Shown one piece after another: positions 8,844 through 22,783 of a stretch of 33,821 nt of DNA (within the stretch, counting starts at the first letter, position 1; each line of letters begins with the position of its first letter). Position numbers and translations under genes: made by a program. This DNA is from Candidatus Jordarchaeia archaeon. Its GTDB lineage: Archaea > Asgardarchaeota > Jordiarchaeia > Jordiarchaeales > Jordiarchaeaceae. Under the pieces are notes generated by a model that was not told the origin of the DNA, did no database searches, and worked only from the letters and a program-made list of their open reading frames with translations. The DNA lies in contig JAHAWU010000029.1 in assembly GCA_018383815.1 (NCBI GenBank), positions 1-33,821 on the forward strand, in the 5' to 3' direction.

Positions 8844-9895
8844 TTAAGTTAAGTCCGATTTTTTATGATAACTATTGAGCTTTCTTATATATTTTCTTGT
8901 CGCTTTCTCTAGGTCTTCTATGCTTCGGTAGTTGTGGTTGGTGCACAGGTCGCGTTTGAGGTGCCTGTTCACCCGACCCTCAACCTCATTGAGCCGGGGA
9001 GCATACTTTGGCAGATAGAAGGGAGTTATTTTCTCCGCGTGTTTCTCAAAGAACAGCCTGGTCTCCCGGCTTGTGGTGAATGGTTGCATTGTCCACAATG
9101 AGGATGATTCTCTTTGAGTCCATGCTTTTTCATGTACCTCAACAATTGTTGTAGGTGCTCCCTGAACTCTCGGCTTCTCCTCCTTTTGCGGATGTGGTAG
9201 AGCTTCTTCTTGGAGGGCCAAAGCAGGGTTATGAAGACGTTTATCCCCCGATTAACGCCTGGCGTGAGAACCCTCCTCTGCTCCCCCCTAGGCATCCATC
9301 CCCACCCCTATTGTGGGGTTGAGTTCCAGCCACTTCTCGTCCTCGAGGGCTACCGCAACCCCTTTTTAAGGAGGGCCGGGGCGATTTTCTTGTAGCCTTC
9401 TACCCGGCGGGCCTTCTCCGGGTAGTGGGGGTCGGGGCTCTCAACCACGGCTTTGGCTCTCTTGTACACTATGCCCAGCTCCTGGAGGATCTCCCACACG
9501 TGGCTCTTGCTTATCTTGATTCCCATCTCCTGGGTGAGGTGTTTTGCCAGGAGCCTTACGCTCCACTCGTTTTTGAGGTAGCCGAAGGTCTGGGGGCTTT
9601 GGAGGGCGGTTTGGGCTATGACCTTTTTCTGTTCGGGGGTTATTCGGGGCTTTTTTCCGGGGTAGGTTTTGGTTCGGAGGGCATTCACCCCTCCCTCCTT
9701 GTATCTCTGGATCCACCGGTAGACTGAGAGGTACGCGGCATTCATCTTCTTTGCGATGGCCCTGTAGGAGAGGCCCTCCGCCTTGTACAGGACGGCCTCC
9801 GCCCTTCGATACTCTCCCTTACTTTTGGTTTCTTGCATGAATTTCCTGATTTCCGCCTCTTCCTTTTTGGACAGGATTAACTTCTGCGCAAACAT
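8844..9895 (-). pseudogene. IS630-family transposase, frameshifted
   Basis: The N-terminal part (9895 down to about 9370) encodes helix-turn-helix segments and the linker WIQRYKEGGVNALRT. The DDE nuclease part then continues in other frames: ALEDEKWLELNP, RRVLTPGVNR.INVFITLLWP, IILIVDNATIH and YLPKYAPRLNEVEGRVNRHLKR. At least four single-base shifts are needed to join them, near 9364-9370, 9303-9310, about 9105 and about 9085. The second-Asp motif LIVDN and the final Asn-Glu (LNEVE) are recognisable after correction, but the gene cannot make a full protein. The reading frame ends through the left terminal repeat. Confidence 0.88.
8849..8858. repeat. Left terminal inverted repeat of IS630-type element
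   Basis: TTAAGTCCGA, whose exact reverse complement TCGGACTTAA is at 9932-9941 on the other side of the transposase. IS630-type elements insert at TA, so the TA at 8850-8851 is probably target, with the element proper starting at 8852. Confidence 0.75.
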
Positions 9896-22016: not shown

Positions 22017-22783
22017 ATGCAAAAAGAGTTGCGTGAGTGGAGACTTTTGGCAAAAAAAGATCTACTGTTTGAAAAGAAAAGGCTTCTGGAAGAGTTGAAA
22101 CGCTCAGGATTCGTCACCCGAGAAAATGTGATGCGCGCATTCCTAGAGGTTCCCCGGGAAGAGTTTGTGCCCCAGAACTTCAGAGGCAAGGCTTACGTTG
22201 ATCATCCTCTTCCCATTCCTGGAGGTCAGACAATATCTGCGCCACACAAAGAGCAAACACCCTGCTTTTTGGGCGTGACATGGTTGTAATGATGTGTGAC
22301 GTACTAGAATTGGAAGAGGGTATGAAGGTACTAGAGGTGGGTACGGGGTCCGGCTACCACGCAGCACTATGCGCTGAAATAGTGGCGCCCACTGGCTCTA
22401 ATGCTAAGGGCCATGTTTACACTATTGAACGGATTCCAGAGTTGGTAGAATTCGCCATAGATAATTTGAGGAGGGCGGGGTACCTTGACCGGGTAACCGT
22501 CATCACTGGGGATGGCTCGGAAGGATACAAGGAAATGGCTCCCTACGATGCTATACTCGTCACAGCCGCAGCTCCCAGAGTTCCTCAACCCCTAGTTGAC
22601 CAACTAAAAATAGGGGGAAGAATGGCCATTCCCCTAGGAAGCCTCTTTATGTACCAAGAGCTAGTAGTAATAGAAAAATTGGAGGAGGGCAAAACTAAAA
22701 AACAAAGATTCGGCTCAGTAGCCTTCGTACCACTAGTGGGAAAATGGGGATTCAGCACGGATTCCGGCTCTCTACACCTTTAA
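22017..22783 (+). CDS. pcm: Protein-L-isoaspartate O-methyltransferase, split by a 32-nt intron
   Basis: Repairs isoaspartyl residues in damaged proteins using SAM. Exon 1 (22017-22245) encodes MRAFLEVPREEFVPQNF and HPLPIPGGQTISAPH; exon 2 (22278-22783) encodes MVVMMCDVLELEEGMKVLEVG with GTGSGYHAAL, YTIERIPELVEFA and the C-terminal PLVGKWGF. Joined they give 735 nt, 244 residues, with the conserved TISAPHMVVMMC intact. Unspliced, the frame runs into the insert, adds KEQTPCFLGVTWL and stops at 22289, losing the SAM site. The insert has a full bulge-helix-bulge structure, so I treat the gene as functional and spliced. ATG at 22017 directly follows GAGAGG, so the start is tentative. Convergent with fen (14-nt gap). 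Confidence 0.9.
22246..22277 (+). other. Bulge-helix-bulge intron inside pcm (32 nt)
   Basis: Central helix CGCC (22240-22243) with GGCG (22272-22275), 4 bp. Bulge 1 is AC|A (22244-22246) and bulge 2 is TG|A (22276-22278). The intron helix CAAAGAGCA (22247-22255) pairs with TGCTTTTTG (22263-22271) over 9 bp including one G-U, with a 7-nt loop. The outer helix is short (TG/CA). Cleavage in each bulge after its second base removes exactly 32 nt and joins GCGCCAC to ACATGG, coding Ala-Pro-His-Met as in the family. Confidence 0.88.

Follow-up and report, generated by a model that had tools for sequence, protein, structure and literature searches.

The window analysed here, a stretch of 33,821 nt from Candidatus Jordarchaeia archaeon, carries on its forward strand a pcm gene whose reading frame is broken by 32 nt, and removal of these nucleotides yields a frame of 244 aa. 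In the genomic sequence the locus appears as two overlapping open reading frames (22017-22289 and 22280-22783). The predicted exon 1 (22017..22245, 229 nt) stops one letter into the His codon of a SAPH motif and matches positions 3-61 of the PF01135 (PCMT) profile, and the predicted exon 2 (22278..22783, 506 nt including the stop codon) matches positions 61-208. Excision of the putative intron (22246..22277, 32 nt) leaves 229 + 506 = 735 nt that read ...TISAPH/MVVMMC... across the junction, the junction-spanning stretch of the predicted joined protein being TISAPHMVVMMC. While the two pieces match the profile separately, the joined protein of 244 aa gave one single PF01135 match (profile 3-208 of 210, E 1.4e-70). 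Among solved structures, that of the protein-L-isoaspartate O-methyltransferase PDB 1jg1 is the closest (E 4.2e-67), and in it GQTVSAPHMV runs uninterrupted where the window has GQTISAPH and, beyond the insert, MVV. The frame break between TISAPH and MVVMMC that a preliminary description of this DNA had proposed was thus confirmed, as was the restoration of the frame by its predicted cuts. Elsewhere in the window, at 8844-9895 on the reverse strand, overlapping ORFs in several frames resemble decayed transposase pieces, as judged by eye from the ORF list.

The same description had assigned to the insert a CGCC/GGCG central helix, two 3-nt bulges, a 9-bp intron helix and a 7-nt loop, and all of these elements of a bulge-helix-bulge (BHB) motif are present on the forward strand. 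The exon strand of the central helix, CGCC (22240..22243), is followed by the 5' bulge ACA (22244..22246), the 5' arm of the intron helix (22247..22255), the loop (22256..22262), the 3' arm (22263..22271), the intron strand of the central helix, GGCG (22272..22275), and the 3' bulge UGA (22276..22278). Both predicted cuts fall after the second nucleotide of the respective bulge. The minimum-energy fold of 22220-22300 contains the central helix, the 5' bulge and the intron helix; the loop was assigned from the fold, and the two arms of the intron helix as well as the GGCG strand from the fold together with the covariation described below.

The shape of the motif alone turned out to be at chance level. 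In 30 dinucleotide shuffles of the window, both strands included, the mean number of BHB motifs whose intron helix reached 9 bp or more and whose intron did not exceed about 60 nt was 1.27, as compared to one in the window itself, and the local fold (z -1.42) was matched or surpassed by 16 of 200 shuffles. Motif rarity alone was therefore dropped as an argument for an intron. What does exceed chance is the coincidence of the BHB with the frame break, together with the comparative record from relatives. The relatives were used as the deciding evidence.

Protein matches to pcm were found in 115 of 119 related genomes and, at 1e-18, in 202 of 227 Asgard genomes. All four genomes of the window's genus, and likewise the four of a second family of the same order, show a match broken at the same residues. 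Among the nearest named records, pcm is split at the same place in Candidatus Jordarchaeia archaeon RPF2 (95% identity in the best segment) and in Ca. Jordarchaeum madagascariense (79% identity). Inserts were present in 12 of 20 fetched relative stretches, and from these and the window (13 loci) a covariance model was built. Searched against the 227 Asgard genomes, with up to 20 candidates scored per genome under strict filters, so that the 118 genomes without a match are uninformative, the model gave at least 112 matches in 109 genomes, 14 of them at 77-80 nt and 98 at exactly 48 nt. As 48 nt equals the window's 80-nt match minus 32, the latter pcm genes lack exactly the predicted intron. The 14 Asgard insert loci fall in 13 genomes, and the fourteenth, in G016, was absent from the training set of the model. 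A search of 392 relatives gave two genomes from outside the Asgard archaea at 1e-7 or better; in the phylum of these two, 22 of 29 genomes gave a match, seven with an insert (68-77 nt) and 15 at exactly 48 nt. The comparison with relatives that had been suggested as a check thus yielded, across the 227 Asgard genomes, the 29 genomes of a second phylum and those of the 392 relatives that are not Asgard, matching inserts of 20-32 nt at the same codon in 21 loci (14 Asgard and seven of the second archaeal phylum; MAGs are among the sources, and G066, which contributes two of the 21, is 12% contaminated) and a total of 113 exact empty sites (98 Asgard and 15 of the second phylum). Because of this contamination, the two G066 copies may belong elsewhere. 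The insert-bearing copies G066:C132, G066:C172 and G016:C126 occur in genomes with further pcm-like genes.

All 21 insert loci share the 4-bp exon-intron helix, as CGCC/GGCG or CACC/GGTG, and both 3-nt bulges, and predicted splicing restores the frame in each of them, the product being SAPHM, or SAPHI in G358. The inserts measure 32 nt in six loci, 31 nt in three, 30 nt in two, 29 nt in five, 28 nt in one, 23 nt in two and 20 nt in two. The 20-nt introns, those of G341 and G395 (L200, L198), have an intron helix of 5 bp and a loop of 3 nt. On the exon side, the first pair of the outer helix (hBHBh') is G-C or G-U in 13 of 13 loci, and this helix comprises 1-3 contiguous pairs only. The intron helix, 9 bp in the window and covarying over 13 loci, contains a bulge or mismatch in G001, G002 and G006.

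This record also bears on the possibility that pcm is a pseudogene or that its sequence or assembly is in error. Either would account for a frame that is broken in the genome sequence, but the interruption occupies the same codon in 21 loci, and the 113 empty sites are exact. In addition, dN/dS was 0.06-0.13 in exon 1 and 0.03-0.07 in exon 2 (four within-genus pairs, some with dS near saturation), and by this measure both exons are under purifying selection, a pattern that is not that of a pseudogene. The preliminary description had named decaying indels and an assembly artefact as findings that would speak against an intron; the former is contradicted by the low dN/dS in both exons, and the latter is very unlikely, given that each of the four genomes in the genus has the insert and that it reappears in other families. 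We regard a pseudogene or sequence error as highly improbable.

The paired positions covary. In the 13-row MAFFT alignment, several rows of which are close relatives so that kinship inflates the covariation and pairing counts, 95.3% of 171 cells pair. Changes on both sides of a pair were found in 36 cells as compared to 12.2 in shuffled alignments (reached in 0 of 500), and they affected 10 of 14 pairs, a number reached by 6 of 500 shuffles. The covariation score was 0.558, against 0.241 when shuffled (0 of 500) and 0.044-0.206 when slid, and the observed pairing of 96 of 104 cells was reached by re-dealt 3' arms in 0 of 100,000 cases. One pair of the central helix is compensatory, G-C in 11 and A-U in two of the 13 loci; its exon letter is a third codon position (GCG or GCA, both Ala) and changes together with the intron letter.

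Two further readings would do without splicing. According to the first, each of the two overlapping ORFs is translated on its own, with the ATG after the insert as the start of the second, and the two products assemble into a split enzyme, the hairpin tuning re-initiation. An ATG does follow directly on the insert in 20 of the 21 loci, and in G012 a GGTGA starts 8 nt before it, yet with a spacing of only 3 nt. However, the Met after the insert is the ordinary Met of the family and is also present in intron-less genes, G358 has ATT in place of the ATG, and the covariation between exon and intron as well as the two 3-nt bulges in all 21 loci would be left unexplained, so that we consider a split enzyme very unlikely. 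The second reading, a programmed frameshift or readthrough producing the full protein from unspliced mRNA, would be in line with a stable hairpin at the frame break. The lengths of the inserts, however, span all three classes modulo 3, so that no single recoding event fits them all, and both 30-nt inserts contain an in-frame stop. In each of the 21 loci a stop ends unspliced reading after 2-64 codons, and translation through the insert would add foreign residues inside SAPH-M. Recoding at the hairpin thus appears even less probable than a split enzyme.

The window's genome (G000) has two genes for EndA, a tRNA-splicing endonuclease subunit (PF01974), and a gene for the ligase RtcB. Of nine genomes searched, seven have PF01974 twice, while G005 (83% complete) and G007 (70% complete) have it once. 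The EndA protein encoded on contig C8 is nearest to the A. pernix chain 3p1z_B (alpha; E 1.3e-44), and its GIRKPKSP aligns with DVEKPRGA of that chain, placing K-P-K at the loop K-P-R. The C180 protein has a Thr at the position of a His in M. jannaschii EndA, which we take to be catalytic, and therefore looks like a structural subunit. The Crenarchaea-specific EndA loop is described as Lys, typically followed by Pro or Val and then by Lys or Arg, the residues being K44, P45 and R46 in A. pernix (PMC12397907). Enzymes of the (alpha-beta)2 type are described as broad in substrate, and that of M. kandleri as constrained broad (PMC6379350).

With regard to tRNAs, ARAGORN called introns in two genes, Leu and Phe, among ten stretches examined. 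The program found one tRNA in 485.6 kb of G000 and none in 400 kb of G004 (G004:C1:1-400000). In G000, which is 95.6% complete, eight tRNA matches exceeded the Rfam cut-off, several of them over-long, with 150 of 216 first-look candidates scored. The tRNA genes of G000 and G004 may be heavily interrupted or permuted.

A BHB insert is also present in cbf5 of G000 (G000:C205:7209-7239, reverse strand; L152, L074), located after the first letter of the catalytic Asp codon, which is the site of the crenarchaeal cbf5 intron. The insert occurs in all eight genomes of the window's order (further loci L075-L081) and is lacking in G008. A contiguous outer helix of at least four pairs was found in five of the eight, and one of one or no pair in G004, G005 and G006; cbf5 of G002 has no contiguous intron helix. 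Several other Asgard genomes and the second phylum have it as well: of 23 cbf5 loci from these groups, 17 showed a 4-pair central helix in a codon-restricted motif search, some with weak intron helices, and the six loci without it include two unsplit genes, L217 and L218. At the crenarchaeal site, spliced cDNA has been reported (Yokobori et al., 2009, PMC2738675). The window's genome thus very probably splices cbf5 mRNA too, and hence another mRNA of the same kind. In L232-L236 and L239-L243 (G051, G048, G047, G102, G023), cbf5 matches are broken near profile position 170 and sit in open frames of 836-902 aa, which looks like an intein in cbf5.

A scan for BHB motifs with a joined frame gave 19 candidates, including pcm and cbf5, in 485.6 kb of G000 (the window and 40 contig pieces), and 17 candidates in 400 kb of G004 without its pcm and cbf5. 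Six of the 17 other G000 candidates were judged by eye from their joined translations, and 11 further ones as well as the 17 of G004 were set aside on motif and frame length; a third intron-bearing gene was not established among them.

The history of the pcm intron was addressed by a quick clade test on all 21 loci with the intron and 35 of the 113 without it, a set that includes one very long branch (L197). A single clade of all 21 introns was rejected (AU p 0.0046), and neither one clade of the 14 Asgard introns (p 0.32) nor one of the eight from the window's order (p 0.46) was. FastTree grouped the eight of the order at 0.956 and the other six Asgard loci at 0.355; a later gene tree does not join the eight directly. 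The gene tree without the junction columns requires at least six changes of intron presence. As the single clade was rejected, the pcm introns may reflect an old origin with losses, parallel gains or transfer. It is conceivable, though we would rather doubt it, that several archaeal phyla, Asgard archaea included, have of old carried introns at codons of catalytic motifs in pcm and cbf5, and that these introns were repeatedly lost or repeatedly regained at identical codons and kept by a broad-specificity EndA, perhaps gating enzyme expression.

We conclude, with a probability of roughly 0.94, that the 32 nt are an archaeal BHB intron of the pcm mRNA, for which we infer cleavage and ligation in the cell, and the enzymes responsible, from sequence comparison. 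In the pre-mRNA, the exon CGCC would pair with the intron GGCG and leave a 3-nt bulge on each side. A two-subunit EndA would then cut each bulge after its second nucleotide, RtcB would ligate the pcm exons, and translation would give a protein-L-isoaspartate O-methyltransferase of 244 aa. The kind of intron is already known and very small; within the literature searched, pcm is a new host gene. With pcm as a second such coding gene, in both Asgard archaea and another phylum, the cbf5 oddity would become a pattern, i.e., an intron that follows the first codon letter and lies within a conserved motif, in genomes whose endonuclease has two subunits. The pcm intron further offers gain and loss events to date and a substrate for enzyme tests, and it cautions that gene-calling programs break up genes of this sort in the archaea nearest to eukaryotes.

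The preliminary description had held that archaeal mRNA introns of this kind are established mainly for crenarchaeal cbf5 and had known of none in pcm. A 2020 paper (PMC7714728) names crenarchaeal cbf5 as the only further archaeal BHB mRNA intron reported and itself describes a Haloferax 5' UTR with BHB sites, and no report of a BHB intron in pcm was found in the open-licence literature searched. The main text of PMC9723677, which describes Jordarchaeia, contains no word beginning with intron or splic. Assignment of the insert to group I or group II introns was rejected on length alone, since 20-32 nt leave no room for a large catalytic core, and the crenarchaeal cbf5 type, defined by cbf5 and its catalytic Asp codon, was rejected as the gene is a different one. 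In comparison with the cbf5 pre-mRNA intron of Desulfurococcales and Sulfolobales, as described in PMC2738675, the pcm intron lies in another gene, at another codon (the His of SAPH) and in other phyla. Moreover, all 21 pcm loci have a regular core and regular bulges, whereas most crenarchaeal cbf5 motifs are described as unconventional BHB (Yokobori et al., 2009, PMC2738675). The introns of archaeal tRNA and rRNA precursors, as presented in PMC6379350, are likewise bulge-helix-bulge substrates of EndA, as the pcm intron is predicted to be, but the latter sits in an mRNA, outside any tRNA or rRNA context. The Haloferax 5' UTR case (PMC7714728) also concerns an mRNA with BHB sites for the splicing endonuclease, cleavage of pcm being predicted; unlike that case, however, the pcm intron interrupts a coding frame.
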